From NCBI GenBank assembly GCA_001800315.1, contig MGVE01000006.1, positions 124,001 through 188,000 on the forward strand: a stretch of 64,000 nt of DNA, written 5' to 3'. The DNA comes from Elusimicrobia bacterium RIFOXYA2_FULL_47_53. Lineage in GTDB: Bacteria > Elusimicrobiota > Endomicrobiia > Endomicrobiales > XYA2-FULL-47-53. The position numbers and the translations under genes are program-made. Positions 19,338-61,018 of the stretch are shown here, piece after piece. The first letter of the stretch is position 1, and the number at the start of each line of letters is the position of its first letter. The notes under the pieces are model-generated. The model searched no databases, had not been told where the DNA came from, and saw only the letters and a program-made list of their open reading frames with translations.

Positions 19338-19844
19338 TTAACAGCGAAGAACTTGGAGAGAAGCGGATACTGTGGTAAGTGATAAGCGGTAAGTGGTAAG
19401 CGACAGCAGGGCAGCAGCAAGAACAAAGGCCATGAATCCGGCCATAGGCAGAATGTTTTTCTCCAACTGCCTGACCAAAGAAATTATGGCGCTGAACGAT
19501 TCTGATATTTTTCCGGCCGCTCCCGCGACAAGTGCGAGCGCCCCGGGATTTAACTTTTTTTGCAGCGCGCTCAAAGCCGCCGCAAAGGTATGGATATCGG
19601 ACTCCACCAGAAGCGTGTAGAGGCCGCTTGAAAATAAATTTATTAAATTTTCTTTTGCACGGCGGTCCTGAACGGTTTGATTATTTGAGTCTCTGAGGTC
19701 TAAATCATGGAAGGAAACGGCTGCCTGCGGAAGATATTTGCTAAGAGAAAAAGCACCCGGCTCTGAGGCCCGCAAACAGGCCGCGCCCAAAGCCATAATG
19801 CTCGTGACACAAAAGACGAAAATAAAAGACTTTGTTTTTCTCAT
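19338..19844 (-). CDS. Small membrane protein under riboswitch control
   Basis: 168 residues from the ATG at 19844. A longer frame starting at 19874 would read through the riboswitch, so the start MRKTKSFIFVF is preferred; GAAGG lies 8 bases before it. The first 27 residues are a signal peptide or membrane anchor, a helical soluble middle follows, and ILPMAGFMAFVLAAALLSL near the C-terminus is a clear membrane helix. The family is not recognised. The last codons are read from a CTTA-type dispersed repeat (19370-19415), so the C-terminal tail may have been replaced by repeat invasion. The strong promoter and cyclic di-GMP-I aptamer upstream are the best evidence that the gene is real and second-messenger controlled. 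Confidence 0.65.
   Translation of the reverse strand: MRKTKSFIFVFCVTSIMALGAACLRASEPGAFSLSKYLPQAAVSFHDLDLRDSNNQTVQDRRAKENLINLFSSGLYTLLVESDIHTFAAALSALQKKLNPGALALVAGAAGKISESFSAIISLVRQLEKNILPMAGFMAFVLAAALLSLTTYRLSLTTVSASLQVLRC
19370..19415. repeat. CTTA-type short-period degenerate repeat
   Basis: On the minus strand the sequence reads as back-to-back units CTTACCACTTACCGCTTATC, with a period near 7 to 10 bases. The same repeat type occurs near 24040, 47582-47620, 47695-47720 and 50685-50722. Here it forms the 3' end of a coding frame. Confidence 0.5.
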
Positions 19845-19856
19845 CTTAGGTACCTT

Positions 19857-19985
19857 CGGTAACCCGGCCGCCATGGCACAAGATTGAACGATCCTTGCGC
19901 TTTAGGCCCGTACCCGCCCTTTTGGCGAGCCCTCTTCTGCGAGGGGCTTTGCGTCCCCGGGTTTGCCCGGGTTTGCCGTTTTTCG
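19857..19985 (-). promoter_or_regulatory. Cyclic di-GMP-I (GEMM-I) riboswitch, copy 1
   Basis: Read on the minus strand, the RNA carries the hallmarks of the GEMM-I aptamer in order: GGCAAACC, a GC-rich P1b hairpin with a CAAA-type loop, GACGCAAAGCC, GGGCCTAAAG, a variable stem, and GGCCGGGTTACCG. These match the Vc2-type consensus. A promoter lies about 20 bases before it. The 3' end of the aptamer (GGTTACCGAAGG) contains the likely ribosome binding site GAAGG of the small membrane gene starting at 19844, and no U-tract terminator lies between, so control of translation initiation is the most likely mode (inference). Confidence 0.9.
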
Positions 19986-20005
19986 GGTATTATTTCTCCA
20001 ATAGA

Positions 20006-36000: not shown

Positions 36001-39000
36001 ATAAATTACCTCCCTGTTATGCGACCCCGAATCCATATATGTTCCGTCGCGCATCAGCCAGGACTCGCCCCTCCCGGGGACAAAATTCAGGTTACCCAGC
36101 ATGCTGTTTTTTTCAAAAAACGCGAAGAGCTCAAAAATGTCCCTGGTGCCGTCTTTTACTCCGGCGGCAAGCTGTCTGAAGGCGACTTTCTGGCCCGGAG
36201 TAATTGAGGCATGCGCGCGGCTGAGCATCTCTTTAATTCTGGCGCGCAGGGCTTCAATATTGGCGCTCTTTGGGGCGTTTAACGACCTCCTGATAAACAT
36301 TTGAATCATCGCCGCGATTCTATTCTGTTCTTTTGAGCGCCCGCTTTCTTCGGCGTAAGCCACAACCGGAGCTCCGTCGCCGATGCCGTAACGCGCGCTG
36401 TTGAAATTGCCTCTTATGGTTTCATTATATATTCTTTCGTATTCGTCCACGCGGCCGCTTTCCACCCAGTCTGGGTTAAATTTTCTCAATTTTTCAAGCG
36501 CGGCGCGGTAGGCGGCTTTGTCGGCGTAAGTTTTTAAATAGCCGGTGGCAATATCGTAAATCGCCTTTGCCGACGCGACCCTCCCGGGTTCGTCTAATTC
36601 GTCGGTATCCTCAAAACCCGGAACCGGTTTAAACGGCGTGCCGCCGTCTAAATAAAAATCCTTCAGGCCGCCGCGGTCCGTAACAATCACCAGAGCGAGC
36701 TTGAGCGCCATCTCAATGTTAGCGATACCACCCGGCTCGTCAATAGAAGGCATAAGGAACTGGTTTGACCCGGCGCCAAAACGCTGAAAAAGCTCGTAGT
36801 CCGATTCGTTGACTACAACCAGCTGGCCCTTGTACTTAGGGTTGCCGGCTATTCTGAAAAGTTCCTCCTGAATCTCGCGCCCTCTTTCGTCGCCGGTTTT
36901 ACCCATAATCGGAACCTGGATTTTTGCTCCGGACTCCGGATCGCGGTAATCAAGAAGCTCTTCAAGAAGCGTTTTTCCGCTTTCAAGACGGGTAATGAGA
37001 ACGGAAAGCCCTTTTTGTTTTACCACCCTTCCCGCAAGGCCGAGAACCATGGCTGACGGATCTTCGTCAAGCCCGAGCAGTTTTTGGAGAGCGGCCTTAT
37101 TTTTTTCTTTCCAGGCAAGAGGGTCGGAGCCCACTTCCGAGACGAAACCGTCTTTTTTGAGCCCGGCCGAATTCTCCGGCAGATAGTTCCTGGCCATAAC
37201 GCCGTTGTGAACGGCCGCGAGCTTATTCCTGTTGCTGAGAAGAATTTCGTTCATCCCGTATCCGCGCTCGGGGGTCAGGCATTCAAGCAGATGTCCCCTG
37301 CTCACAAAAGAGATTCTGTCGGAATAGGTTATCGCTCCTTTCATCAGATTCTGCTTTTCCCAGTATTCAATATTTTTTTCTTTTCTGAGGTCCATGGCGC
37401 TGTATCCGAGCCCGGTCAGTTTAAACATTTCAATTACCAGGCCGCCGGTCTCTTTGCTGCGGTAGGCGTTCATTTCCCTGTCGTCATACCCCCTGTGCTC
37501 TCCGAGGACGCCGCGGGAGAACAGGTATCCCAGCAGTCCGCCGCGGCTGTCGGCCCTGTGCGGGATATCCATTGTTCTTGGGAATATGCCCTGGTGCTCA
37601 AGATTATGCACGGTAAATACCGAGGCAGGCCTGCGCCCGAGCTGCCAGTTGCTGTTTTTGTACTCCTCTTCAAGATAAACCGGGCCGAGCGCAGTCTGCC
37701 AGTCGTTGAAGTGCATGGCGTCAAATTCAATGCCGAGATTTTGCTGAATCATCAGGGAAGCGCGGGGAAGCGCTATGGCCTCAATAAAACCTCCGAGCGA
37801 ATTTGGGGGAGGCGTTTTATAGAGCTCGTTGAAAAACTCCCCGTCTTTGTTGAAAAGGAAGAGCACGGGAACCCCCGTATTTTCCTGCTCCGAATAAATT
37901 ACCTCAAAAAGAATTGAGCCGCGCCCGACGGGCACATAAAGTTCGCTTAACACTACCGAGCCGGTCTTACGCATAAACTCTTCCACCGAGCCGTAAGCGT
38001 CGGCGACCGATTTGGAAAAAAGCGGCGTGAAAACGAACGAACCTATCCCTTTGACGCCCTGCGCCGCCGGCGTGTCCTTCATGTAGATACCCTGGCCGCC
38101 GCCCTGCTCGCCTTTGAGGCCAAGTATCGGCATTTCCATGGCCACAAAACACACGACGGGTTTTCCCAGGGCGCGAGCCAGTGATATTCTTCTGTTTATT
38201 TTTTCAAGGGCCGCCGCGCGGGTGAGAGGTTTTTTTCCGGAAAGCTGCAATGCCGCCGCGGCAAGCAGGCTTGGCGCGAGCAGCGCGTTTTGCGCGAAAT
38301 CAACGAACTCCGGCTGAAGCGGCTCTTGGATTTCGGATAAGCCGAAATAGGAGGCTATGCCTCCGGCAACCAGAAAAAACGCCTTAAGAACCGGGCCTTT
38401 TGCTATTTTCCCGCGCGCGGGAATTTTGGCGCGGAGCGGATTTTCGGCGTCCGGCAGTATTTCCACGCCGCTTATTTCGCCCCGACGGGTCTTTAACTGC
38501 CAGCGGCCGTTGTCAATCGCTATTATAAAGTCTATGCCTTTCGGCTCAATGGCTACCGAAACCCCGTGTTTCCCGGCGCTGTTTTCGGCCTGGTTTTTTA
38601 TGCGGGAGAGCGCGTCGCTTAAGCTGAGCCGCCCGGCCTGCGCCTCGTGCAAAACCGCGCCGACAAACATCTCCATCTGTTTGCGCGGCTCAAGCTGTCC
38701 GAAATTTTCCGGTGAGAATGCCGCCGAAGCGATCTCGGCAAGCCCTATCCGTTGCGACATAAGGCTCTCGTACACGCTTTCGTCGTGGTTCTGAGTCGCG
38801 TTTGGAGTTATGGAAATATATGATGAGTTATCAATGCCGTTTGTTATGCCGGAGTGGAATCCGCCGGTCAGAACAACCTCTACATCCCTGAAACCCGAAA
38901 TATTTGACAGAACGGACTTATAACCCGCAGCCGCGGAACGGCCTGTTTCCCGGCCGCGCTCCCGCGGCGGTAAACCGCAGATCGCCGATGTGAAAATGTC

Positions 39001-40299: not shown

Positions 40300-40891
40300 G
40301 GCCGCGCTCCGTTTTGACATTGTTTGCCCGGGACAGCGGGCAAGAGAAAACCCCCGTTGCCTTACAGCAATGGGGGTTAAATGGAAATATGGCGATTAAA
40401 CCGCTGATGTAGTCGTCAATACTGCCTCTGGGCAACAGGAAAAAAAAGCCGTGCAGTTTTAGCCTTCGCGCCTTAAGAAAGATCAGCGCTAAAATACCCG
40501 CGAGTATCAGCCCGGGCCGCGCCTGAGCCGAAGCTTCAATGGGCGAGTTGATAAATGGCCCGGCCAGAAATACATTTTTTAAATCCCCGTTGTATGACGG
40601 GGCGGGAGAATAGATTTTGCATTGCTGCGGGGCCTGCTCCTCTTTCCGCGGCTTTGGCATTGTCTTTTTGCCGGCGTCGGCGGCGAAATCAATAAGCGCT
40701 GAAACAAATTTAAGTTGTCCGCTGAAATTGGCGTTTACCACGGCCAGTACCGGCGATAAACTGCTTTTCATGGCCGCGGGCGCCAAGTCTTGGCGCGCGG
40801 AAAAATCCATTCCTTTCAGATAACCGATATCCGAAACAAGAATGGCAGTAACCTGAATAAGCGCAAGAAAAACAAATACCGCCCTTTTCAT
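40289..40891 (-). CDS. Small membrane protein upstream of the giant chimeric gene
   Basis: 200 residues, family not recognised. The N-terminus MKRAVFVFLALIQVTAILVS is a signal peptide or membrane anchor. A Lys/Glu-rich hydrophilic middle with NSPIEASAQARPG precedes a membrane helix PGLILAGILALIFLKARR at about residues 126-143. The last 35 residues are read through a strong hairpin (40349-40378), so the true functional tail is uncertain. The frame ends 11 bases inside the giant gene's preferred start at 40299, suggesting translational coupling. Upstream, the gene is divergent from mnmG across a 181-base gap. Confidence 0.6.
   Translation of the reverse strand: MKRAVFVFLALIQVTAILVSDIGYLKGMDFSARQDLAPAAMKSSLSPVLAVVNANFSGQLKFVSALIDFAADAGKKTMPKPRKEEQAPQQCKIYSPAPSYNGDLKNVFLAGPFINSPIEASAQARPGLILAGILALIFLKARRLKLHGFFFLLPRGSIDDYISGLIAIFPFNPHCCKATGVFSCPLSRANNVKTERGHVW
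40324..40378 (-). terminator. Tandem hairpins before the giant chimeric gene (attenuator-like)
   Basis: On the minus strand, a 12-bp stem (arms 40367-40378 and 40349-40360, with one G-U pair) is followed by TTTTCTCTT, as in an intrinsic terminator. A second hairpin, TTGCCCG/CGGGCAA (40337-40343 and 40324-40330), then ends three bases before the ATG at 40320. Both lie inside the 3' end of the preceding coding frame, so translation of that frame would melt them. Confidence 0.6.
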
Positions 40892-47944: not shown

Positions 47945-49186
47945 TTACCTCTGGACTACTTTTAACCCTTTTATACTTTCCCTGAAAAGCTTCTGAACCC
48001 CGTCCGCGCAGGCCCAGATATTCTTTCCGTCAAACGCTATCCCTGAAATCGCAAGGCCGTCGGCCTCAAACTGCGGAATTATGTAAATGCCGGCAACAGC
48101 GAAATTTTCGGCCGTCACTTTATAAATCCTGTTTGTTTTCGCATCCGCGATAAAGAAATATTCTCCGTGCTTGAATATGCCTTTGGGATTTTCCGCCGGG
48201 CTGTCAAAGGTTTGTTCAACGCTTAGAGCGCCGTCATCTTTGTGCTTGTAAACCCTGGCAAGCTGAAAATCAAGAGACCACAGGTTCGCGCCGTCATGAT
48301 AAAGGCCGGAGGGGCTCGCCCCGGGGCTTTTATATTCGGCCGAAACAGAGAGCTCGGCGTCCGGATTGAGCCTGTAAATTTTGCCCTCAAAAGGGCTGGC
48401 CGCCCAGATATAATTATTCCCGCAGGCTATCCCGGAGGGAGCTTTGTCTGTTATCTTATAAAGGTTCTCAACTGACAGCTTGGAATCGTTTTTGTGTTTG
48501 TATACTGTTTCCGCCATCCAGTCGCAGGCCCAAAGACTTTTGCCGTCCCAGCTAAGGCCGGAAGGATTAGAATACGGCACCTGAAAGGACGCCCCCGGCA
48601 CCGGCTTATTTAAATATAGATAAACCCCAAAACCAATAAGAGCGGCGGCAACCGCGACAACGGCAACTTTTATTAAAGACAGCTTACCCGAAACCGGCTC
48701 TTCGTCGGCAGGAAGTTCCTGCTCCCGCGCGGCCGTTGAAGGCTGGGCGGGCGGTTTATCCTGTTTAACCGGCAGAGGAGGCGGGGCCGGAGAGCGCGCG
48801 GGAGGAACTGGGGACGGCGTTTTTAAGTCCCTGTTGAGAACTTTCTTTGCCATTCTGAGGAACTCTTCTATCTTAAACGGTTTGGATATATACTCCACCG
48901 CGCCGAGTTTTACAAGTTCTAAGGCGACATCAATTTCCCCGAACCCGGACAATATGACCACCGGCAGCTGCGGTTTGATTTTTTTAAGGCCGGCAAGTAT
49001 TTCCGAGCTGTCCATATCCGGAAGGCTGATGTCAAGGAATACTATATCGGGCATCTCAAGCTTGCACAGCTCCAGCGATTGAGCGCCGTCTTCCGCGCCG
49101 AAAACAATATGCCCGTCGGGTTGCAGGATTTTTGTGATTACCTGCCGCATCCCGGGTTCGTCGTCTATAACCAGTACTTTTGACAT
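47945..49186 (-). CDS. Response regulator fused through a membrane helix to an extracytoplasmic beta-propeller (copy 2)
   Basis: 413 residues from the ATG at 49186 (GGAG eight bases upstream). Residues 1-120 are a complete receiver domain: acidic pair in VIDDEP, phosphoacceptor Asp52 in FLDISLPD, VVILSGFGE, and Lys in YISKPFK. A Pro-rich linker (about 122-165) leads to one membrane helix, VAVVAVAAALIGFGVYLYL (about 174-192). The rest has five repeats of 40-45 residues with the pattern N-P-S-G-L-x-x-D-G-x-x-L-W-x-x-D, then V-Y-K-H-K-x-D, a beta-propeller of the NHL/SGL kind, predicted to lie outside the inner membrane. The histidine kinase gene is 45 bases upstream, the likely partner. A paralogue lies at 58323-59513. 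Confidence 0.88.
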   Translation of the reverse strand: MSKVLVIDDEPGMRQVITKILQPDGHIVFGAEDGAQSLELCKLEMPDIVFLDISLPDMDSSEILAGLKKIKPQLPVVILSGFGEIDVALELVKLGAVEYISKPFKIEEFLRMAKKVLNRDLKTPSPVPPARSPAPPPLPVKQDKPPAQPSTAAREQELPADEEPVSGKLSLIKVAVVAVAAALIGFGVYLYLNKPVPGASFQVPYSNPSGLSWDGKSLWACDWMAETVYKHKNDSKLSVENLYKITDKAPSGIACGNNYIWAASPFEGKIYRLNPDAELSVSAEYKSPGASPSGLYHDGANLWSLDFQLARVYKHKDDGALSVEQTFDSPAENPKGIFKHGEYFFIADAKTNRIYKVTAENFAVAGIYIIPQFEADGLAISGIAFDGKNIWACADGVQKLFRESIKGLKVVQR

Positions 49187-49231
49187 CAATTTTTCTCCGC
49201 TGCGTTTGTGTTTTACTCTTTAGCGGCCGTT

Positions 49232-50614
49232 TTACGCTGACGGCGGCTCAAGCAGAAGGTTGACGGCGACCGTCGTGCCTTTCCCTTTTACGCTTTCAAG
49301 ATGAATTGTTCCCCTGTGCAGGTCTATCACCCGCTGAGCTATAGTAAGGCCGAGCCCCTTGCGCCCCTTTTTGGATGAAAAGTAGGGCTGAAACACTTTT
49401 TTTATGTGCGCCTCGGAAATGCCTGAGCCCGTGTCGGTCATTTTTACGCTCAGCCGGCGGCTGGCCTCATCGTACGCGGTGGCAAGCGTAAGCCCTCCGC
49501 CCTGCGGCATGGACTCAAGCGCGTTCTGCAAAAGCTTGACGAAAGCGTCAAGCATGAGCTTTTTGTCGGCCTTCACCGCGGGAAGATTTGAGCCGAAATT
49601 CCTGCTGACGGCGATATTCTGGCCCTTAAACTGCGCCTCAAGCGGGGAAAACGCGCCCTCAAGCAGTTCGTTCATGTTATGCGCTTCCAGGCTCATTTCC
49701 GGTATCCTGGCCAGCGCGAGAAATTCCTCAATTGATTTTAACATTTCCTGAGCGTTCTGATCAACAATATTGAGCTGTTCCTTAAGTTCATTATCCATCG
49801 GGAAATTCGCGGTGCACAGCTGAATGGTTCCCGACATAATTCCCAGATAGTTGCGCACCTTGTGGGCAAAGCCCCTGGCCAGGTCCTCTAAAATTGTAAA
49901 ATGCTCTTTTTCCCTGTCCTTAAGATTGGTGAGCTGCTGCGACATCTGGCCGCTGATACCGCCGACTTCTTTCTCAAGCTTTTCCCACTTTGTTTTCTCC
50001 TGGTTAAAAATACTCTCTTTCTCGGCCAGCGCCCGGGCCACCTCTTTCTTTTCTTCTTCAAGTTTCTCAAGCCTTTTTCTTGACTCTTCTTCCTTCGCCT
50101 TAAGATTCTCTTCAAGCTCCTTGAGCTGCTTTTCCATCATCGCGCGGCCCGCGAAGAACTCCTGCGGCGCGTAGGCGCCGGCTCCGGGCGTTATGGCCAC
50201 GCCTTCGGAAACGCCGAGCTTGCTCTTTAAATCCTTGTTCTCGCTTTCAAGAACGGAGAGCCTTGATTCCCACTGCGATTTTGTTTTTTCTAAAATTGCC
50301 TCGGTTTCCTTCGCTTTTACCCTGTCTTCCAGAAGCATTTTCTCCTGCTCCCACCTTCTTTCCAGCTCCTTTAGCTTTATGTCAAGCTCTTTTATGGCGA
50401 ACTCGTGGGTTTGAGCCTGAGACTGCATATTCTTTTTTTCTTCCTCTTTTACCTCAAGCTTTCTTTCCCAGAGCATGAGCTCTTCGTCGTAGCGCCTTTT
50501 CCAGAAATCAGCCACGGAAATGGCGTCAACTACCTGCATCATCTCGGAATCAACAGGCATATCCGTTTGAATTTTTTTAAGTTCTTCTTCAACCCAGTCC
50601 CACGAATCTTGCAT
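49232..50614 (-). CDS. Soluble coiled-coil histidine kinase
   Basis: 460 residues, no membrane helix. Residues 45-235 are a long Glu/Lys-rich coiled coil, which replaces a sensor domain. The dimerisation/phosphoacceptor box reads GFAHKVRNYLGIMSGTIQL; the His is the expected phosphorylation site. The ATPase domain has the N box (LLQNALESM), G1 (DTGSGI), F box (FQPYFSSK) and G2 (GLGLTIAQRV). This is the NtrB-like HisKA/HATPase layout. AGAGGC precedes the ATG. It is followed by the receiver-TM-propeller gene and preceded by the outer-membrane/LysM gene. The signal it senses cannot be read; the coiled coil may dock to another protein. Confidence 0.92.
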   Translation of the reverse strand: MQDSWDWVEEELKKIQTDMPVDSEMMQVVDAISVADFWKRRYDEELMLWERKLEVKEEEKKNMQSQAQTHEFAIKELDIKLKELERRWEQEKMLLEDRVKAKETEAILEKTKSQWESRLSVLESENKDLKSKLGVSEGVAITPGAGAYAPQEFFAGRAMMEKQLKELEENLKAKEEESRKRLEKLEEEKKEVARALAEKESIFNQEKTKWEKLEKEVGGISGQMSQQLTNLKDREKEHFTILEDLARGFAHKVRNYLGIMSGTIQLCTANFPMDNELKEQLNIVDQNAQEMLKSIEEFLALARIPEMSLEAHNMNELLEGAFSPLEAQFKGQNIAVSRNFGSNLPAVKADKKLMLDAFVKLLQNALESMPQGGGLTLATAYDEASRRLSVKMTDTGSGISEAHIKKVFQPYFSSKKGRKGLGLTIAQRVIDLHRGTIHLESVKGKGTTVAVNLLLEPPSA

Positions 50615-50724: not shown

Positions 50725-52638
50725 CTATGGTATCTTTATTTCCTGGCCGGGCTTCACCTGCCCGCCCACAAACTTTCCTTTATTGGCATTATATATTTCT
50801 TTCCATCTGCCGGCGTCATTGTAATACTTTTTCGCGATTCCCTGAAGATTTTCTCCCGGACGGACTATGTGTTTTCTCGGCCCGGATTTTTTCGGCTCTT
50901 CCTTTTTGGGCTCCGTTTTCTCCTGAGGCAGAACCTCGGCTTTTGGCGCTTCTTTTTTGTCCTCCGGCCCGGCCGTCTTGGGCTGTTCTGCCGCGGGCCC
51001 GCCCATCTGAATGACTTTTATCTGCATGGGAGCCGCCGCCGGCGCCGCTCCCGGCTGGCCCATGCCGGGCAATGCTGTTTTTACCGGAGTGATCTCCTGG
51101 GTTTGAACCGCAGCCGGTGAAACAGGCTGAACTCTCGGAGCGGTTGATTCCTGCGAGAACGGCGTCTCGCCGCGGGTTATGGGAGGAATAATAAGCACCT
51201 GATTGGCCTTTAAAACCCCGCCTCTGCCGATGCTGTCCCTGTTCGCCTGGTATATCTCGTTCCAGTATTTGGATTCGTTATAGTATTTTTCAGCGATAGA
51301 CTGAAGCGTTTCACCCTTTCTGACAACATGCCTTGTTTCCCTGCGTTCCCTGGTTTCAGCGGCCGCGGGAACGGCGGCGTCACCCTTGTCTTCCTTGTAG
51401 GCCTTTTCGGTTTTCGCGGCTTTAATTCTTTCCTTTATGCGCAGGGTGGCCTCATCTATCAAAACCTCTTCAAGCCTTTTTCTCTCGGATTCGGTTTCCG
51501 AAAGGGTGGCCTTAAGCCCCTCAACCTCGTCTTTGAGGTCGGCGTAATACATCTCAAGGCTGCCGGGCTCCAGCTCGGCTTTAACGATTCTGCCGAATTT
51601 GTAAACAAAACTCATTCTGTGCGATCCGCTCGTATCTTTAATTCCGCTAAACGGCAGCTGAAAAACATAATCTATCTGTACCGGCCTTAGGTCAAAGGAA
51701 AAACCCAGGCTGCCCATGGCGTAGTTCCTTCCGCCCATGCTGACTCCGGCTCTTATGGCAAAAAGTTTCTTAAACCATTTTTCAAACCCGGTGGCGCCGT
51801 ACCAGTTATTGGCCCTGTAGATGCAATCGGCGTCCCATCTGATATCCCTCTGTTTCCAGGCTATGCCGGCCCTGTAGGTTGAGTTGAGCCTGTCAACCGA
51901 GCTCAGGCCCAGGTCCGGCTGATTGATATCTGAGGCGGAAATTCCCGCGAAAAGCCTCGGCATAATATTGTATACGACTCCCGCGTCAACGCTGAAGGCG
52001 TTTACCGATGATTTTTTGCCATAGTCAAAGACCGGGCTCAGCTCAAGGTATTTGTCTATCACATATTTTTCCGTGAGAGCTTTTAAGTTTATTCCGTACG
52101 CCCACTTGTTGTTTACTGACTTGCTCAAACCAAGATAATAGGATGATTCCTGGTAATGGTCCATCAAATCAAACTGTCTCCAGCCGACCGAAAGCGTAAA
52201 GAGGTGAACGGTGGAAATTCTGTACTCAACCGCGGCCGCGGTTGACACCTGCACCGCGGCGGCCGAGGAAGTGGAAACGCTGTCGCGGCTGCCGGCCACG
52301 GCTTCGGACTTAATTTTCATGAACGGCAGAGTAAGTCCCACGAATGAATTTGATATATCGGATTTGTCTGTCAGCCCCAGCCACAACTTGCCGTAGTCGG
52401 CTCCGAGCTGGCTCTGGCGCACAAGGCCGGGGCCTGCCGGATTGTAGTAAAAACCGAAAGGATCGTCGGCAATGGCGCAGTACGCACCGCCAAGGCCTAT
52501 GGCTCTCGCCCCGGCTCCCAAATCGTCAAAATCAGCGCTTGATTGCTGGGCAAGGGAAAAAACAACGGCAAGCACACTGATAAATATCAGAATGTCGTTT
52601 TTTACCGTCAATAGTGTTTTTGCCGCTTTTTGATTCAT
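50725..52638 (-). CDS. PorV/PorQ-type outer-membrane protein with two LysM domains
   Basis: 637 residues from the ATG at 52638, which has AGGAAAAAT before it and opens a signal peptide (ILIFISVLAVVFSLAQQSSA). A frame starting at 52791 would overlap the upstream gene and bury this signal. Residues 35-330 match the PorV/PorQ (UPF0164) barrel: GAGARAIGLGGAYCAIADDP, FYYNPAGPG and repeated amphipathic strands. A coiled coil (about 345-390) is followed by a LysM domain (VVRKGETLQSIAEKYYNESK), a Pro/Ala/Glu-rich linker, and a second LysM (IVRPGENLQGIAKKYYNDAG) at the C-terminus. The LysM domains would bind peptidoglycan, so the protein could link the outer membrane to the cell wall (inference). It lies 59 bases after the fibronectin-rich gene. 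Confidence 0.88.
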   Translation of the reverse strand: MNQKAAKTLLTVKNDILIFISVLAVVFSLAQQSSADFDDLGAGARAIGLGGAYCAIADDPFGFYYNPAGPGLVRQSQLGADYGKLWLGLTDKSDISNSFVGLTLPFMKIKSEAVAGSRDSVSTSSAAAVQVSTAAAVEYRISTVHLFTLSVGWRQFDLMDHYQESSYYLGLSKSVNNKWAYGINLKALTEKYVIDKYLELSPVFDYGKKSSVNAFSVDAGVVYNIMPRLFAGISASDINQPDLGLSSVDRLNSTYRAGIAWKQRDIRWDADCIYRANNWYGATGFEKWFKKLFAIRAGVSMGGRNYAMGSLGFSFDLRPVQIDYVFQLPFSGIKDTSGSHRMSFVYKFGRIVKAELEPGSLEMYYADLKDEVEGLKATLSETESERKRLEEVLIDEATLRIKERIKAAKTEKAYKEDKGDAAVPAAAETRERRETRHVVRKGETLQSIAEKYYNESKYWNEIYQANRDSIGRGGVLKANQVLIIPPITRGETPFSQESTAPRVQPVSPAAVQTQEITPVKTALPGMGQPGAAPAAAPMQIKVIQMGGPAAEQPKTAGPEDKKEAPKAEVLPQEKTEPKKEEPKKSGPRKHIVRPGENLQGIAKKYYNDAGRWKEIYNANKGKFVGGQVKPGQEIKIP

Positions 52639-52697
52639 ATTTTTCCTGTGGCCGACCGCCCCGGCATACACTGCGCTTAACTTATCGTTTATGACGC

Positions 52698-55600
52698 TCA
52701 CCTTGCCAGAATTATCGTTCCGTTCACAACTTTTTTCTGAGACTCTATCTGATAAATATATACACCCTTTGAGGCTCCGGCGCCGTCCCATTCCAGTATT
52801 ACGGTTGTCGCGGTGGCGTCTCCGACGGGGGCGATATCCGCGATGTATTCGCCGCGCATATCAAATATTTTTCCGGAAATTTTGTCTCCGTCCGGGTTGT
52901 CCGTAAAAAACATTATTTTTTCGTAGGGAGCGACTCCGGGAGTAAAAGTTTTGGAAGGGTATATGCTGGCCAAACCGAAGGCCGTGGCGCGGCTGACCTG
53001 CCTTAACTGGTACTCGCCCGGCCGCTTTACCCTTATAACCACTTTTTTCTTTAACTCGTCCATATATCCGCCGACCCTGATGTATTCCACTCCGTTGAAC
53101 CAGTAAACCGCGAGCTCTCCGGAAACAAAAGAAGACGGAGCGGCAAACGGCGTTCCCATGGAAGGAGCGGGGAAGAGGTTGCCATAAGAAAACTGAAGAG
53201 TGACAGGCACGCTGAACTCATAGTTTGAAATATTTTCAAGCGCCGCGTCCTGAACCTTAAGATCGTACACCCTGAAGGTTTTGCCGACCTCAAGATCGGT
53301 CTTCCTTACGAAATCCACAGTAATATCTTTCTGCCATTTGTTGTTTTCCGCGAGCAGCTCGCTGGATGTTTCCGCCGGAAGCTCGGCGACCGCTTCCTGG
53401 TCCTGCGAAACCAGCGTCAGCCTTTCCGGATTTGAGGTGTCCAGAATAAGCGAATTCGCGCTTTCGGTCCCGGATTCGTCTATCGCCCGCACGAAGAAGA
53501 AATATTTACCGGCGAGAATAGTGGGATCCGTGTATTCCAGAACCGCCTTGTCTACAAATGAAATTTTTACCGCGGCGCTAAGCCCCGCGACGGAGACGGC
53601 CCTGTAAATATTGTAGCCCGAGAGGTCGTCGGCCGCTGTCCCGTCCGTATTTGTTATTACCGGCGACCATTTAACGGTAAAACAGCATTCATCGGACGAT
53701 ATCGCTCCCCTCAAACCCGCCGGAGGAACCGGCTTGTTGATAACCGGAATAGCAAACGAGAATATTCCCGCGCAGTCCCTTTCAAGGCCTTTTAAATCCT
53801 TGGCGACAACCCTCCAGTAGTAAGTCCTGTTTTCAAGCAGGGCCTCGGGAACCGAGTAATTGTTTGTTTTTATGGATTTTTTGTTCAGCGTCAGTACTGA
53901 GAAATCTGAAACCGTTGAAATAAACAGCTCGTATTCCACGCTGTCGTTTAAATCGCCGTCTACCGCGGCATTCCAGGAAAGAGCCGGAGTTTTCGTGTCC
54001 ACGGCCGAACCGTTGGCGGGAGCGAGCAGCGCGAAACTATGCGGCGGATTATTAGTCATGGATATTACAAACGACCAGGTCGGGCTGAAAACAAAATCCG
54101 GATCAACATTTGAAGGCGGATTGCCCTGATAACCGCTCGCGCGGACCCGCCAGTAATAAGTTGACTGGTCTAAAAGGCCTGTCAGCGGCTGATAGAATGT
54201 ATCGGCGCCGGTCGGTATGGGCTGGCTGCCGGTAAAGGATGGGTCCTGGGAAATTTCTATGTAGTAGCGAACTATATCGGCTGGATCCGGATCCTCAGCG
54301 GCTTGCCATATGAACCACGGGGTCAGAGTTGTTGAAATCAGAACCCCGTAGGCCGGCTCAGACAGGCTGAAACTGCCCGGAGTTTGTTTTACAATGTCGG
54401 TATAGAATTTTCTCACGGCTGACTGCTGGCTTTTTCCGTTGTTCTGGCTTACGGCGTCCACCTTCCAGAAGTAATCGCGGTTGTCTCCCCAGAACATGTA
54501 CTGGGCAGTCGTGGTCTGCGTCAGCCCGGTTATCGTGGTGCTGAAAGCCACATTAAAGTCCGAGTCAAGAGAATAAGTCAGGTTATAATACACCGAGTCC
54601 CGCGGATCCGGCGCTGTCGCGGAATTCCATGAGAAGCTGACATCAAGAGATGTCTGTCTTTCGTCATTAGCCGGGGTCAACAGGGCAAAACTGTTCGGGG
54701 CTTCCGAGGTTCCGTTCACCGCGAACGAGTTGGTGGTGGCGCTCATGGTATAAAGCAGGCCGTCGGTAGACCAGACCCTCCACCAGTAAGTGGAGTTTTC
54801 CACAAGCGCCGGAGTTGTAAATGCCGTTGAAACTAAACCGGCCGATGAAGCGTACGAGGTGAACTCGGGGGTCTGCGAATAATCCACTTTATAGGTCCAG
54901 CTGTCTCCGGGGTCATTGTCCACCGAAACGGTCCAGGAAAGCTCCGGAGCCTGCGTATAAACTATAGACGAGTCCTGCGGCCCGGTTAGAGAGAATGCCG
55001 TGGGAGCCGTGTTAATTACATTGATTCTTACTTTATAGTATGGCGGCGAACACAAAGCCGCCGTCCCGTCGGCGTCAACAGCCCTCGCCTCCCAGTAAAT
55101 TGTTTTGTCCTCCCAGAGCTGGAAGCCCGGAGTATAAGTAGGAGTGCTGAGTCCGGCAACCACGGTCGTTATGGAAACATTAAACGAGCTCTCGGTTGAA
55201 AATGAAATAGTGTAGCTAAGTGTGTCTCCGAGCGCCGAATCCTGATCGCTGGAAGCCTGCCAGGTGAAAACCGGCGTCGCGGTCGGAGAAACACTGTTGT
55301 CGGCAGGAAGGTTTAATGAGAAAACCGCGGGGCCGCGGTTGACCGGAGCGGCGGCGGGCGAGGTTGAAGAAACCGCGGACCAGTTGCCTCTCTCGTCTGA
55401 AGTTTTAACGGCGAAATAGTAGGTGGTTCCGTTGCTTAATCCGGTTACCGCGCAGGACTGCAGGCTCCCGGGAGTTGTGGAGGTTGCCCAGGAAATTCTA
55501 TAAGGGTATCCCGCTGAAACCTGATCCCAGTTGGCGCCGGTTATTTCAGCGTAACTGGAAATTCTTAAGTCATAGGAACCGCTCAAGGCGTTGCTTGTGC

Positions 55601-57962
55601 CGTCGTCGCCGGGCGCGGCCCATGAAAGGCTTATCTGTCTCCAGGAGGGAGAAATCGCTATGGAGGTCACGGTCGCGGGGGCGGTTATATCCACCTGAGC
55701 CCAGGCGGTAGCTCCGTCTGAAACCGCCGACCAGTTGCCGGCTTCATCAGCGGACCAGACGCGCGCGTAATATGTCACTCCGCCGGTAAGCCCCTCTATC
55801 TCGCGGGCCTGAGGTTCGTACGGCTGAACCGTTGTGGTAATCTGTATTTGATAAGAAGACAGCTGGAAATTGTATTGCGGATCGCTTGAGTAGTCAATGC
55901 GGTATTTGCCGTCCGTTATCTGGCCTGACGGTCCGTTATCGCCGGGCGCTTCCCAGCTCAGGTTTATCTTTCCCTCGCTTGAGCCCTGCGAAGCCGAGAT
56001 TGTTGTAATAGCCATGGGCGCCACGGTGTCCAGGGTTCTTGTGGATACGAAGGAAGAGAAAGGCGATTCCATCTCAAGGCTGAAATATCCGTTGCCGAGG
56101 TTTCCTTTGTCTATGCAGGTTATGCCGTAAAAATATGTGGTTTCCGAGAGAAGCCCGGTATCAATATAGTAGGTAGTCGGATGCGCCACCGCGAAAGTGC
56201 TTATGTTTACGGCCGCGGCTGAGAAAGAGAATGTCGCTCTGTAAACTTTATAAATATTCCTGTCGTCGTAGCCGCTTACGGAGGGCAGGCCCCATGAAAC
56301 CGCGACTGAATTAGACCCGAGCGCGACGGCGTAGGGATTAGCCGGAGCCTGCGGCGGCCTGTCCAGCGCCGATACCGCCTTAGTGGCGGCGATGAGAGAA
56401 TAATTGTTTACCTTGTCTCTGGCCCTAAGCGAGAACCAGTAGGTTGTGCCGGGATAAAGGCCGGTTAAAACCCTCGGTGGTTCGGTGCTGGGAAAGGTTA
56501 CGGTCGCCGCCACATTTGACGAAACTCCTATGGCGTCAAATATGTCCTCCGTAATGTCCGAGGTGCTCCATTTCACCACATAAGAGCTGCTCTGGCCTGT
56601 TGTGCCGTCGTCTCCCGAGGCAACCCAGGTGAGGCGCACCTCTCCGTCATTTGTCCATGTTTCGGCGCTGGTCAGAAGCGGCGCGGCCGGCGCTATTCTC
56701 GGCAGGGTGGTTGAAACCTGAATATAATCGGGTATAACAGGAAGCTCGTCGTTATTTGTCGCCCAGATTCTGTATTGGTAAGTCGTTCCCTCCAGCAAAC
56801 CGAGATCCTGGTGGGTCGTTGAGGCGGCAAGAGTCATGGCATTGACAAGATTCGCGATGAAACCGTCGGTGGAGCGCTTAACGGTATATCTTGTGTAGGA
56901 GGGATTGGAATTGTTCTGCCAGGTAAGTTCGGCCTTGGCGGTTGTCAGCACAGAGGTCACGGTTCCCGGCTGGTTGCAGAATGTAAATAATATTTTCGCG
57001 TTTGAATTTATCGCCTGTAAATCGTTGAAAGCCTCAACTACAACGGCTCCCGAAGCGTTGGGTGTAAGCCCGCTCATTACCCAGTATGTTACGGAGGCGG
57101 CAAGGTCCCCCGACATGTTTTCGCCGGTAGTGGAATTGATAACCCGAAACCCGTCGGAGTTTGAAACCAGGTTCCAGGCCCACTGAATATCGGACGACGA
57201 AATAGCGGCCGCGTCAGCCGAGAAGGCCGGCTGCGCCATGGCTACCCACGGCGCCGTTGAACCAACCGAGCTGTATTCGCCTGTATTATTTGTGTTGTCT
57301 TTAGCCCTCACCCTATAATAATAGGTATTGCCGTTTAAAAGAGCCGTGTCCTGGTGGGTCGTTCCGGGTGAAAGTATAGCCACCAGTTCGCTAAAACCGG
57401 AAAGCGCCGAGTAGCTTGAGCTTTCCACGATATATTCCTTTATATCATTTTCAGGGTTTGCGCTCCAGGAAATGTCAACGAAGGCATTGTTCGCCGCGAG
57501 AGTCAGACCCGAAACCTTTGAGGGCGATGAATCAAAGATTACGCAGAAATTGGCCGTATTCCAGGCGCCCAGCGTATCCACCGAGGACTGCCAGACGCCG
57601 TAATTAGACAATGAATCAATGGCCGCGGCCGCGAAATAAAGAGTCGCGCCCGGAGCAAGATTTGACAGCAGCCTGGATTCAGCGGTGCCGCTTGAAGCAA
57701 GCGAACTCCAGCTCTGCGTATAAGTGCTCGTCCAGGAGCTGAAAAAATCGGCCGAATTTATCTCGGCGGTCGCGTATTTAACCAGATATCCCTGGGGAGC
57801 GCTGAATCCGTCGGAAGGATCCGGAGCAGTCCATTCAAGCGTCATGGTTCCTTCTGCTGACCCGGCAAGGGCCGTCAGGTCGCAGACGGCTGCAGGAACG
57901 GCAAAAACGGGGGCAAACAGCCCCGTCAGAGCTACCAATGATAATAAGACGCGTTTTATCAT
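52698..57962 (-). CDS. Fibronectin-rich secreted surface protein with FlgD-like C-terminus
   Basis: 1754 residues from the ATG at 57962. An upstream ATG at 57989 lies in the terminator T-run, so it is rejected. The signal peptide is MIKRVLLSLVALTGLFAPVF. Eight or so fibronectin type III modules follow (each with patterns like LxWxAPGDDG and GTTYYFAVKTSDERGNWSAVS), then five related modules with the pattern P-x-F-x-W and T-Y-W-W-R-V, and one more fibronectin module near residue 1430. After a linker, the last 90 residues are a FlgD/T9SS-like Ig fold: KIFDMRGEYIADI, LEWDGAGASKGVYIYQIES and a GTIILAR end. Such C-terminal domains serve in secretion or surface anchoring. A cyclic di-GMP-I riboswitch and a terminator lie in its leader. 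The outer-membrane/LysM gene follows at once, so both are probably controlled together. Confidence 0.9.
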   Translation of the reverse strand: MIKRVLLSLVALTGLFAPVFAVPAAVCDLTALAGSAEGTMTLEWTAPDPSDGFSAPQGYLVKYATAEINSADFFSSWTSTYTQSWSSLASSGTAESRLLSNLAPGATLYFAAAAIDSLSNYGVWQSSVDTLGAWNTANFCVIFDSSPSKVSGLTLAANNAFVDISWSANPENDIKEYIVESSSYSALSGFSELVAILSPGTTHQDTALLNGNTYYYRVRAKDNTNNTGEYSSVGSTAPWVAMAQPAFSADAAAISSSDIQWAWNLVSNSDGFRVINSTTGENMSGDLAASVTYWVMSGLTPNASGAVVVEAFNDLQAINSNAKILFTFCNQPGTVTSVLTTAKAELTWQNNSNPSYTRYTVKRSTDGFIANLVNAMTLAASTTHQDLGLLEGTTYQYRIWATNNDELPVIPDYIQVSTTLPRIAPAAPLLTSAETWTNDGEVRLTWVASGDDGTTGQSSSYVVKWSTSDITEDIFDAIGVSSNVAATVTFPSTEPPRVLTGLYPGTTYWFSLRARDKVNNYSLIAATKAVSALDRPPQAPANPYAVALGSNSVAVSWGLPSVSGYDDRNIYKVYRATFSFSAAAVNISTFAVAHPTTYYIDTGLLSETTYFYGITCIDKGNLGNGYFSLEMESPFSSFVSTRTLDTVAPMAITTISASQGSSEGKINLSWEAPGDNGPSGQITDGKYRIDYSSDPQYNFQLSSYQIQITTTVQPYEPQAREIEGLTGGVTYYARVWSADEAGNWSAVSDGATAWAQVDITAPATVTSIAISPSWRQISLSWAAPGDDGTSNALSGSYDLRISSYAEITGANWDQVSAGYPYRISWATSTTPGSLQSCAVTGLSNGTTYYFAVKTSDERGNWSAVSSTSPAAAPVNRGPAVFSLNLPADNSVSPTATPVFTWQASSDQDSALGDTLSYTISFSTESSFNVSITTVVAGLSTPTYTPGFQLWEDKTIYWEARAVDADGTAALCSPPYYKVRINVINTAPTAFSLTGPQDSSIVYTQAPELSWTVSVDNDPGDSWTYKVDYSQTPEFTSYASSAGLVSTAFTTPALVENSTYWWRVWSTDGLLYTMSATTNSFAVNGTSEAPNSFALLTPANDERQTSLDVSFSWNSATAPDPRDSVYYNLTYSLDSDFNVAFSTTITGLTQTTTAQYMFWGDNRDYFWKVDAVSQNNGKSQQSAVRKFYTDIVKQTPGSFSLSEPAYGVLISTTLTPWFIWQAAEDPDPADIVRYYIEISQDPSFTGSQPIPTGADTFYQPLTGLLDQSTYYWRVRASGYQGNPPSNVDPDFVFSPTWSFVISMTNNPPHSFALLAPANGSAVDTKTPALSWNAAVDGDLNDSVEYELFISTVSDFSVLTLNKKSIKTNNYSVPEALLENRTYYWRVVAKDLKGLERDCAGIFSFAIPVINKPVPPAGLRGAISSDECCFTVKWSPVITNTDGTAADDLSGYNIYRAVSVAGLSAAVKISFVDKAVLEYTDPTILAGKYFFFVRAIDESGTESANSLILDTSNPERLTLVSQDQEAVAELPAETSSELLAENNKWQKDITVDFVRKTDLEVGKTFRVYDLKVQDAALENISNYEFSVPVTLQFSYGNLFPAPSMGTPFAAPSSFVSGELAVYWFNGVEYIRVGGYMDELKKKVVIRVKRPGEYQLRQVSRATAFGLASIYPSKTFTPGVAPYEKIMFFTDNPDGDKISGKIFDMRGEYIADIAPVGDATATTVILEWDGAGASKGVYIYQIESQKKVVNGTIILAR

Positions 57963-57980: not shown

Positions 57981-58023
57981 AAAAAACAAAAACTACCGTT
58001 CGGCCCGTCACTGGCCCGGTAGC
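57981..58023 (-). terminator. Intrinsic terminator in the riboswitch leader
   Basis: On the minus strand, CTACCG and CGGTAG close a hairpin with an inner GGCC-type stem, followed by TTTTTGTTTTTTC. It lies between the cyclic di-GMP aptamer and the start of the fibronectin-rich gene, so read-through decides expression. Confidence 0.85.
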
Positions 58024-58145
58024 TAAAGATAGGGGGTCTTTTTAATGCGCGCTACCCGCAAAACGAAAATTCCCGTTTTCGCGGTCGGCCTCAGCTGTTC
58101 TTTTTCGGTAACCCGGCTGGCGTGGATAGGCCCCCTATCTTTAGC
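58022..58145 (-). promoter_or_regulatory. Long-range 15-base complement linking aptamer and terminator
   Basis: GCTAAAGATAGGGGG (58022-58036, plus strand) is the exact complement of 58131-58145. On the RNA, the aptamer segment GCUAAAGAUAGGGGG could pair with the stretch just before the terminator hairpin. That pairing would break the aptamer's GAUAGG/CCUAUC stem, so the two folds are mutually exclusive. Confidence 0.75.
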
Positions 58146-58190
58146 CCCGTGGCTTTGCGTCCCCGAGTTTCCTCAGGTTTGCCATGCTTT
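58104..58190 (-). promoter_or_regulatory. Cyclic di-GMP-I (GEMM-I) riboswitch, copy 2
   Basis: Read on the minus strand: GGCAAACC, a P1b hairpin CCTGAG-GAAA-CTCGGG with the expected GNRA tetraloop, GACGCAAAGCC, GGGGCTAAAG, a GATAGG-GGG-CCTATC stem, and CAGCCGGGTTACCG. Every conserved block of the GEMM-I consensus is present in order. It sits about 50 bases after a promoter and about 80 bases before a terminator, so it most likely controls transcription elongation into the fibronectin-rich gene. The direction (on or off) cannot be settled by eye. Confidence 0.93.
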
Positions 58191-58254
58191 AAAAGCAATC
58201 CGCTTTAAAGCGGTTTTTATCGTAAGAACATAACAGCTTTTTGGCCGCACTCAT

Positions 58255-58283
58255 TAAATAACAGAGTTCGCTATATTTGTCAA
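58255..58283 (-). promoter_or_regulatory. Promoter for riboswitch 2
   Basis: On the minus strand, TTGACA (58278-58283), 17 bases, TATTTA (58255-58260). The -35 box is perfect and the -10 box weak. Transcription would start near 58248, ahead of the aptamer. It begins about 40 bases after the stop of the neighbouring receiver-propeller gene. Confidence 0.6.
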
Positions 58284-58322: not shown

Positions 58323-59513
58323 TTAATATTTAACTTCTTTCATGGAATTGAATGAAAAGTTGAATATTTTACCTATTCCGTCCGCGCTGGCCCATAGAGT
58401 TTTGCCGTCGGAAGTAATGCCTGCCAGCTTATAATTATTCTTTACAAAATACGGTATTTCATAAACATCGCTGACAGAGAAATCCTTAACCGAAACTTTA
58501 TATATCCTTCCGGTCTTGTAGTCGCCTATGAAAAAATTCTCTCCGCTTTTAAACATGCCGCAGGGGTTAATGGCCGGGCTGTCAAAAGTGCCTATCATTG
58601 AAATTGTTTCGTCCATTTTGTGCTTGTAGATTTTGGCGGCCTCTGAATCCAGCACCCAGAGGTTAGCGCCGTCAAAATAAAGGCCGGAGGGATTGCCCCC
58701 GGAGGTGGCGAAAATGGCTTCTACCGTGAGCGAGGCGTCCATATTATGCCTGTAAATCCTTTTTTCTATGGAACTGCAGGTCCAGAGTTTCTCTCCGTCA
58801 TAAGTCAAACCCGTGGGCTGGCTGTTCGCGCTTTTGTAAACCGAAGCTATGGAAAGCTTCGCGTCCTTGTTATGCTGATAGATATTGCCCATCACCCAGT
58901 CGGTGACCCAGAGATTCTGTCCAATGGAACTAATACCCGTCGGATTGGCATAGGGTATAGCGAATTCCTGCACCGCGCCGGAACTAAACAATCCCCTGCC
59001 GAATATTACGGCAAGCGCGATAAGAAGAGCTGCGCCGGCTCCTATCAGTATTCCCTTCGGAAGAGGTTTTTTAGCCGCCGCGGGAGCTGAAACCGCCGCC
59101 TGAGGCTTTGAAGCAGGAGCCGCCGCCGCCGCGGCCGCCTGGCCCTGGGCCGGCACGGCGCCCAGCGCTTTATTGACGACTTTAAGCACTTCGTCAATTT
59201 TAAATGGTTTGGATATATAATCAAAAGCTCCCTGCTTTATTGAAGAGACCGCTGTCTCTACATCGCCGAAGCCGGAGAGCATTATACATTTAATGTTGGG
59301 GTTTATTTTCTTGAGCTCCGCCAGGACCTCAAGGCCGTCCATGTCCGGAACTCTCATATCAAGAAGAGCGAGATCGGGAACTTCCCTGGCTCCGATTTCA
59401 ATAGCCTGTTTTCCGTCCTCCGCCGTAAAAAGAGGATGCCCCAGCGGCTTCACCATGTTGTAAACCACATTTCTCAAAGCCGGTTCATCGTCCATAATCA
59501 GAATCTTTGCCAT
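58323..59513 (-). CDS. Response regulator fused through a membrane helix to an extracytoplasmic beta-propeller (copy 1)
   Basis: 396 residues from the ATG at 59513, with GGAGG nine bases upstream. The receiver domain (residues 1-118) has MDDEP, phosphoacceptor Asp in LLDMRVPDMDG, IMLSGFGD and YISKPFK. An Ala/Pro-rich linker (about 122-150) precedes one membrane helix, ILIGAGAALLIALAVIFG. The outer part has about five repeats of the NPTGI / LWVTDWVMGNIYQHNKDAKL type. It is a full-length paralogue of 47945-49186, with the same domain order and propeller but a different linker. It is the last gene of the FtsA-CheC-CheD-CheY operon, 22 bases after CheY. Its kinase is not in the operon. Confidence 0.9.
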   Translation of the reverse strand: MAKILIMDDEPALRNVVYNMVKPLGHPLFTAEDGKQAIEIGAREVPDLALLDMRVPDMDGLEVLAELKKINPNIKCIMLSGFGDVETAVSSIKQGAFDYISKPFKIDEVLKVVNKALGAVPAQGQAAAAAAAPASKPQAAVSAPAAAKKPLPKGILIGAGAALLIALAVIFGRGLFSSGAVQEFAIPYANPTGISSIGQNLWVTDWVMGNIYQHNKDAKLSIASVYKSANSQPTGLTYDGEKLWTCSSIEKRIYRHNMDASLTVEAIFATSGGNPSGLYFDGANLWVLDSEAAKIYKHKMDETISMIGTFDSPAINPCGMFKSGENFFIGDYKTGRIYKVSVKDFSVSDVYEIPYFVKNNYKLAGITSDGKTLWASADGIGKIFNFSFNSMKEVKY

Positions 59514-59535
59514 TGTTTCCTCCAATTCAGTATTC

Positions 59536-59904
59536 TTATTTTCCTTCAAGGGCGGCTTTAATCTTTTCAAGCATCTGGGCCGGATTATAGGGTTTTGAAA
59601 TATATCCGCTTGCCCCGGCTTCCGTGAGCGTTTCCGGCTCCCCGGAGAGGTCGTGGCCGGTGCACATTAACACGGGTATTTTTGCCGTCAGAGGATCGGC
59701 CTTGATCATTTTGCAGGCCTCCCAGCCGTCCACTTCGGGCATTTCGGCGTCAAGCAAAACTATATCGGGCATTTCTGATTTTGTTTTTTCAAAAGCCTCG
59801 CTTCCGTCGGCAGCCTCAACCACGGTATGGCCGCCCTTCTCCAGGGACATTTTTGCGATTTTTCTCATCATGTCCGAATCGTCAGCGATAAGTATCTTTG
59901 CCAT
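59536..59904 (-). CDS. CheY-like single-domain response regulator
   Basis: 122 residues, a lone receiver: ADDSDMMRKIA, phosphoacceptor Asp in VLLDAEMPEVDGWE, VLMCTGHD, and YISKPYNPAQM. There is no output domain, as in CheY, though the Thr/Ser switch site and flanks look like generic single-domain receivers. GGAGG stands 6 bases from the ATG. Its neighbours CheC and CheD suggest it is the phospho-CheY-type protein on which CheC acts. Confidence 0.92.
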   Translation of the reverse strand: MAKILIADDSDMMRKIAKMSLEKGGHTVVEAADGSEAFEKTKSEMPDIVLLDAEMPEVDGWEACKMIKADPLTAKIPVLMCTGHDLSGEPETLTEAGASGYISKPYNPAQMLEKIKAALEGK

Positions 59905-59924
59905 TACAACCTCCGCAAGAAGTA

Positions 59925-60410
59925 TTATATCTCTTTTGTTCCTATTTTGGCGGACTTTATCGTAAGTTTCCCGCTTGTCGTGTCAAATACTATGGTCCTG
60001 CCGTAATTCTTGCCGGTGTCCTCCGCGACAAGAAAAATTTTCGCGTTTTCCAGAAGCTTCTTCACGGCCTCAATGTTTCTGTCTCCGATATTCATTGAGG
60101 GGTCCGGAACCGCGCTCTGGAACATACAGGCGCCTCCGGCGATCTTGGCCGTTATTTTTGCCCTGACCGCGCCCAGGCGGGTCATCTCCTCAAGCATCTT
60201 TGCCACGGCGACATCGGCGAATTTCGGGCTGGGCGCCTGGGAGCTTCTTGACAGAGCGCTGTCCGGAAGCATGATATGGGCAAGCCCGGAAACTTTAGTA
60301 ACCGGATCGTGCAAAGCGATGCCGACGCAGGAACCGAGGCTTATGGATTCCAGCAGGCAGGCGTTTTTCGCGACTATATATTCGCCTATTCCTACGCTTA
60401 TCACATCCAT
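59925..60410 (-). CDS. cheD: Chemoreceptor glutamine deamidase CheD
   Basis: 161 residues. CheD deamidates receptor glutamines and, bound to CheC, raises its phosphatase activity. The catalytic Cys lies in SLGSCVGIALHDP and the His in GLAHIMLPDS. KIAGGACMF, IGDRNIEAV and GRTIVFDTTSGKL complete the family pattern. The ATG shares one base with the preceding CheC-type stop (TGATG), so the two are translationally coupled. No chemoreceptor, CheA or CheW is present in the window. Confidence 0.95.
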   Translation of the reverse strand: MDVISVGIGEYIVAKNACLLESISLGSCVGIALHDPVTKVSGLAHIMLPDSALSRSSQAPSPKFADVAVAKMLEEMTRLGAVRAKITAKIAGGACMFQSAVPDPSMNIGDRNIEAVKKLLENAKIFLVAEDTGKNYGRTIVFDTTSGKLTIKSAKIGTKEI

Positions 60411-61018
60411 CAGGCAATACCCACTTTTTTAAATATCCTCTCCAGCGACGGCGTATCTGGGAAAATAATAAAGTTTCCCTCCAGCTTGGCGTCAGGGGAC
60501 TTTATCTCGGTTTCCATAAGAAGCGCGTAGTCAACTTCCTGCGCTATTTCTATCAGCAGATAGTCCACTACGGCGCCGAGCGCGTCTGAAGAATAAAACG
60601 GAACCGAAATAAAAATTTGAGCGTCTATCATGTCTGCCAGCGCGTTAATGTAAGAATTAGTAAGGATATTTCCGAGCTCCATCATCGCCGATCTTTCTAT
60701 TTCTTCAAATTCAACATGGTTTTCCGGCTTTATGCCGGCCATCAGCAGCGCCGTTAAAGAACTCGCGGTATCGGCCGGAAAAAACAGCAGGACGCTTCCC
60801 GTGATGTCTCCCAATATTTTGAAATACAGGCCGACTATGGGTATTTCCGCCCCGCCCAGTTTTTCCGGGACCTTTGTCACGGGCACCAGGGCCAGGTCGG
60901 GTATGTCCACCGTGACTGTTTTGTCAATAAGTTTTGACAGCGCGGTCGCGGCATGCGCGGTGCCGACATTAACAAATTCTTTAAGGGCGTCTATCTCCAT
61001 TTCGGTGTATTCTTTCAT
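60410..61018 (-). CDS. CheC-type phosphatase (both active sites intact)
   Basis: 202 residues. CheC-family enzymes remove phosphate from CheY-P. Both copies of the signature D/S-x3-E-x2-N-x22-P are complete: DALKEFVN...P near residue 9 and SAMMELGN...P near residue 110, each with exactly 22 residues before the Pro. The order CheC, CheC, CheD, CheY matches a CheC/CheD/CheY control loop. It overlaps the gene before it by four bases (ATGA). Confidence 0.92.
   Translation of the reverse strand: MKEYTEMEIDALKEFVNVGTAHAATALSKLIDKTVTVDIPDLALVPVTKVPEKLGGAEIPIVGLYFKILGDITGSVLLFFPADTASSLTALLMAGIKPENHVEFEEIERSAMMELGNILTNSYINALADMIDAQIFISVPFYSSDALGAVVDYLLIEIAQEVDYALLMETEIKSPDAKLEGNFIIFPDTPSLERIFKKVGIA

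Follow-up and report, generated by a model that had tools for sequence, protein, structure and literature searches.

The leader of a gene for a large fibronectin-rich (fn3) protein in Elusimicrobia bacterium RIFOXYA2_FULL_47_53 (genome G000) raises the question of whether cyclic di-GMP (c-di-GMP) controls a surface-protein operon at the level of transcription and, if so, in which direction. We analyzed the 64,000-nt stretch of DNA that carries this leader (the window) together with related loci of the phylum. An earlier note, based on the sequence of the window, had singled out a segment that runs exactly from the -35 box through the end of the U-tract. We find that this segment is probably a c-di-GMP class I riboswitch acting as a kinetic transcriptional OFF switch.

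Organization of the leader

A search with RF01051, which the earlier note had named as the check on its claim of a complete GEMM-I aptamer, aligned the entire model (positions 1-87) with a score of 81.5 bits, relative to a gathering score of 35 (Table 1). The aptamer presents a GAAA tetraloop on P2 and a receptor-like CUAA in P3, and these columns are invariant among the related loci described below. The second messenger itself is probably in use in this genome (2.41 Mb, estimated 100% complete, with five c-di-GMP-I aptamers), because we detected 9 GGDEF, 9 HD_5 (HD-GYP type) and 8 PilZ domain matches there. The whole-genome domain search of G000 returned no EAL domain, and the HD_5 proteins represent the candidate phosphodiesterases. 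Across our sample of the phylum, a c-di-GMP-I aptamer was found in 139 of the 340 genomes.

Table 1. Features of the riboswitch leader and its downstream genes (window coordinates).
Feature	Positions	Strand	Basis
Sigma-70-like promoter: -35 TTGACA (58283-58278), 17-nt spacer, extended -10 TGT-TATTTA (58263-58255)	58255-58283	-	Read from sequence
c-di-GMP-I (GEMM-I) aptamer, complete	58104-58193	-	RF01051, 81.5 bits, E 1.7e-14
P3 5' strand and GGGGG loop (CGGGGCUAAAGAUAGGGGG), aptamer side of the predicted antiterminator	58131-58149	-	Fold and comparison
Predicted antiterminator strand CCCCCUAUCUUUAGCU-A-CCG, including the 5' strand of the terminator stem	58017-58036	-	Complement, 8-locus comparison, fold
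Intrinsic terminator CUACCG (58022-58017)...CGGUAG (57998-57993)-UUUUUGUUUUUU (57992-57981)	57981-58022	-	Sequence, fold
1754-aa fn3-repeat protein, first gene under the switch; signal-peptide-like N-terminus, weak T9SS-like C-terminal domain	52698-57962	-	ORF, domains, full-length orthologs
PorP/SprF-PorV-like outer-membrane protein carrying LysM; probable start close to 52644	50725-52791	-	Domains, conserved order
Histidine kinase, likely of the same operon; 60-61% identity to the G003 and G007 copies	49232-50614	-	Gene order
Response regulator with a fused propeller-like region; less certain member of the operon	47945-49189	-	Opposite strand in G003

The other elements that had been claimed are present as well. 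The promoter is legible ahead of the aptamer, and its TTGACA/CTGYTA layout recurs upstream of related aptamers; it is absent from the output of the automatic promoter scan because its -10 element is weak. The aptamer segment GCUAAAGAUAGGGGG (58145-58131, in P3) is a perfect 15-nt complement of CCCCCUAUCUUUAGC (58036-58022), and a 67-nt linker separates the aptamer from CCCCCUAUCUUUAGC. None of 3000 dinucleotide shuffles reached a complement of 15 nt (the maximum was 13, seen once). An intrinsic terminator lies between the aptamer and the start codon at ATG 57962, as in terminator-type riboswitches: the sequence CUACCGGGCCAGUGACGGGCCGAACGGUAG-UUUUUGUUUUUU (58022-57981) is fused directly onto CCCCCUAUCUUUAGC, and it was missed by the automatic terminator scan because of its long loop. 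A five-codon frame (AUG-GCG-AAA-ACA-UUA-UGA, 57976-57959 on the minus strand) directly follows the U-tract, and its stop codon overlaps the fn3 start codon.

The extent of the pairing, in contrast, had been under-read. Beyond the 15 bp, the predicted helix gains one G-U pair and then, past a bulged A, three G-C pairs that reach into the terminator stem, which yields 16 bp, a bulged A and 3 bp in all. We had also considered that the complement and the terminator share a single base, in which case the two structures would be compatible and there would be no switch; this idea was rejected based on the predicted fold, in which the helix runs through the bulged A into CCG.

Conservation of the platform

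We identified the same fusion of complement and terminator at eight loci of six Endomicrobiia genomes (two each in G000 and G005, one each in G003, G007, G328 and G329). The P3 strand of these loci reads CGG(A/G)GCUAA(A/G)G(A/G)UAGGGG and the terminator reads CUACCG...GGUAG, with the stem and the U-tract kept in 8/8 loci. The strands of the terminator stem are invariant in A1 with the exception of one position in G005s. The linkers cannot be aligned and span 23-100 nt before the complement (scripted count). When the 19 antiterminator pairs were evaluated across the eight loci, 98.7% of the cells were found paired, relative to 37-61% when the partner strand was slid by 1-3 columns. Thirteen of the 19 pairs are invariant and a single compensatory change was observed; covariation did not exceed shuffling (66/500), because the antiterminator strands hardly vary. 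The case for the putative antiterminator is therefore carried by conservation, not by covariation.

Neither the complement-terminator pattern nor the exact 19-nt string was found in viral contigs, and in the genome contig collection the pattern was found with an aptamer in one Endomicrobiales record only (relative G005). Matches to the pattern with two mismatches in other genomes of the phylum fall outside riboswitches and look like chance, and these were discarded. The GGGUAGC of the window linker was likewise rejected as a separate antiterminator, as no such sequence is common to the linkers of the relatives.

Predicted folding and direction of control

In the ligand-free minimum-energy fold, CGGGGCUAAAGAUAGGGGG pairs with CCCCCUAUCUUUAGCU-A-CCG and the resulting helix occupies the entire 5' strand of the terminator stem. 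The folding with and without the aptamer fixed, which the earlier note had called for, separates the two predicted states. The basal terminator pairs of the window present probabilities of 0.00-0.08 when free and of 0.71-1.00 when the aptamer is forced (three parameter sets at two temperatures). In one fold analysis, forcing the aptamer gave the terminator stem a probability of 0.87-0.99; unforced, the basal pair reached 0.003, or 0.13 with the U-tract. Together with the comparison of loci, these values (0.71-1.00 versus 0.00-0.13) back the terminator switch that had been claimed: the aptamer and the terminator are predicted to coexist, and an alternative fold is predicted to exclude both. Shuffling the 12-nt complement restored the terminator (median 0.98), whereas shuffling the linker did not (0.04); these controls were apparently computed with the Langdon parameters, as the wild-type values match that set.

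A scan of the modelled transcript over increasing lengths predicts that P3 persists up to about nt 176 and that the antiterminator dominates at 180-184. At equilibrium, the antiterminator of the window is favored over the aptamer by about 13 kcal/mol and, therefore, the predicted switch could only work kinetically. The ligand would then have to act in the interval of transcription set by this length scan, as described for Cd1 (PMC9262584).

These predictions suggest the following mechanism. The aptamer would be transcribed first and, judging from the folding, would remain stably folded until the antiterminator strand emerges. If c-di-GMP is absent, CCCCCUAUCUUUAGCU(A)CCG, which emerges 67-86 nt behind the aptamer, would invade P3 from the GGGGG loop, with CCCCCUAUCUUU as the antiterminator segment opposite GCUAAAGAUAGGGGG in the proposed read-through pairing. 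This invasion would build a 19-bp helix with the 5' strand of P3 and deprive the terminator stem of its own 5' strand, such that RNA polymerase would continue through to the fn3/PorP-LysM/kinase genes. Once c-di-GMP is bound, P3 would be docked to the tetraloop of P2 and resist the invasion, the terminator would form and transcription would stop ahead of the start codon. Comparison with the relatives suggests this direction, on which the earlier note took no position: the signal would shut off the operon, and likewise a matching motor-like operon, by the early end of transcription. A second platform, found in the downstream aptamers of tandem switches, also predicts OFF: there, GGUAACC pairs with the 3' end of the aptamer and shares AACC with the terminator. 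The predictions are not uniform: at L056, which belongs to the eight loci, the terminator is predicted whether or not the aptamer is forced, the outcome for L050 changes from one parameter set to another, and the two states scarcely differ at L059 and L055_1536.

The proposed OFF switch resembles Cd1 of Clostridioides difficile, a transcriptional OFF c-di-GMP-I riboswitch in which the aptamer and the terminator form together, in competition with an antiterminator (PMC9262584). Both combine a class I aptamer with an intrinsic terminator that can coexist with it, and in both the antiterminator wins at equilibrium in longer transcripts. However, the antiterminator of Cd1 takes the 3' strand of the aptamer, including the ligand-binding C (PMC9262584), whereas that of the window would take the 5' strand and loop of P3 and leave the binding C outside the helix. 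This pairing therefore points to a Cd1-like logic but not to the same platform. The pilM riboswitch of Geobacter metallireducens presents a closely related aptamer fold and is also controlled by a terminator, but it is a transcriptional ON switch for cGAMP whose terminator uses an aptamer strand and is mutually exclusive with the aptamer (PMC9262584), in contrast to the coexistence predicted in the window. The aptamer class, the terminator control and the OFF logic are all known, and it is the invaded aptamer strand that differs from Cd1.

Alternatively, the same aptamer and terminator could form an ON switch, in which the helix between the unliganded aptamer and its complement would stack on the terminator and promote it, and the ligand would let transcription continue. 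Adhesin expression is commonly raised by c-di-GMP, which would fit this direction, as would the coexistence of helix and terminator in L056 and the inner terminator pairs that survive in L078 and L079. Both directions are also known for c-di-GMP-I aptamers (PMC9262584). However, the window and most relatives lose their basal terminator pairs when ligand-free and regain them when the aptamer is forced, and the linkers present no conserved sequence that, with ligand bound, could sequester the terminator. In addition, none of the mapped loci predicts ON; aptamers were mapped by regex at about half of the loci of the phylum, and this survey speaks mainly for Endomicrobiia. We consider an ON switch unlikely.

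It is also conceivable that the hairpin is minor for transcription, with the complement merely resetting the aptamer and control exerted mainly on translation or RNA stability. The Bacillus switch Bc1, of the same class, controls both transcription and translation (PMC11218506), and in the window the start codon closely follows the U-tract with no clear Shine-Dalgarno sequence. Against this, the conserved stem and U-tract of all eight loci, and a complement fused to that stem rather than to a ribosome-binding site, make such a mode quite improbable. As for the ligand, close relatives of this aptamer class sense 3',3'-cGAMP (PMC9262584, PMC9481103). The selectivity position, however, is a G (GGCAAA) in the window and in the seven other platform loci, instead of the A found in c-AMP-GMP types such as the cGAMP-selective GEMM-Ib. 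This G is the type expected for c-di-GMP rather than c-AMP-GMP, and 3',3'-cGAMP appears to be a very improbable ligand. The OFF switch responding to c-di-GMP remains our preferred reading.

Target operon and related switches in Endomicrobiia

The protein behind the terminator presents the start codon and the 1754 residues that had been claimed. In G001, G003, G005 and G007, its orthologs (42-53% identity) follow a c-di-GMP-I aptamer, such that the riboswitch precedes orthologous fn3 operons in five genera. The order of the fn3, PorP/PorV-LysM and kinase genes is kept in G001, G003 and G007, which agrees with the operon proposed earlier for these three genes. The receiver-propeller gene, also included in that proposal, follows in the window and in G007, but its membership is less certain since G003 encodes it on the opposite strand. 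The riboswitch, FliG_C and a full-length fn3 ortholog occur in the same 5 of the 59 genomes sampled for the order (in G005, a contig end truncates the fn3 copy). The count is not one of independent cases, because these five genomes are relatives of each other and a single family supplies most of the rest. G328 carries a full-length fn3 ortholog, but no riboswitch scores above threshold ahead of it.

Chemotaxis-adaptation genes adjoin the surface-protein operon: the upstream neighbours (58323-63942, minus strand) encode a receiver-propeller protein, a receiver, CheD, two CheC-like proteins, a receiver-PAS protein and a weak MreB-like match. Elsewhere in the window, a 5410-aa open reading frame spans 24088-40320 (minus strand). 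A second c-di-GMP-I aptamer (19855-19987, minus strand; 41.5 bits) has a long P3 insert and lies 10 nt before a 168-aa ORF (19338-19844). A Shine-Dalgarno-like AAGG stretch directly adjoins the 3' end of this aptamer, with flanking UACC/GGUA; control there may thus be translational. Likely orthologs with equally close spacing were found at L057 and L062.

A tandem c-di-GMP-I switch was observed at L050 (G000:C6:78000-90000) and at its orthologs L052, L055, L060, L078 and L079. These are tandem doublets of the kind reported for this class (347 cases; PMC9481103), whereas the switch of the window has one aptamer. Within each of these sister doublets, the first and the second aptamer differ in their type of platform. 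The genes behind them encode an FlgD_ig-like protein, a PorV-family/TPR protein, a FliF_C-FliG_M-FliG_C-TPR protein and a protein of 1600-1950 aa. G000 contains four FliG_C matches, and neither FlhA nor FliM/FliN domains were found in its genome domain search. This domain content raises the question of a FliG-based apparatus without a flagellum. We propose, tentatively, that a conserved RNA regulon of Endomicrobiia might use c-di-GMP and OFF riboswitches to shut down a flagellum-less surface machine of FliF/FliG-like, PorV-family and fn3/FlgD-like proteins. Another conserved riboswitch target (L051, L058, L061) is a secreted protein of about 500-880 aa with an EPDPEP-like N-terminus, whose L051 copy presents a T9SS-like C-terminal domain. 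In G003, a group I intron (RF00028, 74.6 bits; L053, 533-765), apparently in a tRNA gene, lies about 250 nt before tandem c-di-GMP-I aptamers.

Searches of an open-access literature collection returned no description of c-di-GMP riboswitches from Elusimicrobiota, in agreement with the earlier impression that the arrangement is undescribed in this lineage. Bc2 of Bacillus thuringiensis is reported to be a c-di-GMP riboswitch before a collagen adhesion gene (PMC4933901); it shares with the window a surface-protein gene behind the switch and differs in the phylum and in the type of surface protein. The leader described here offers, for Elusimicrobiota, a definite point of c-di-GMP control that can be tested. 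Its platform, with the predicted invasion of a P3 strand fused to a terminator, is compact, and its sequence is kept across families while the linker drifts. Switches of this kind stand before fn3 operons and also before an operon that contains FliG, in a genome that lacks the flagellar export gate, and this points to a whole regulon. Such a regulon would allow predicting when these uncultured cells build their surface apparatus.
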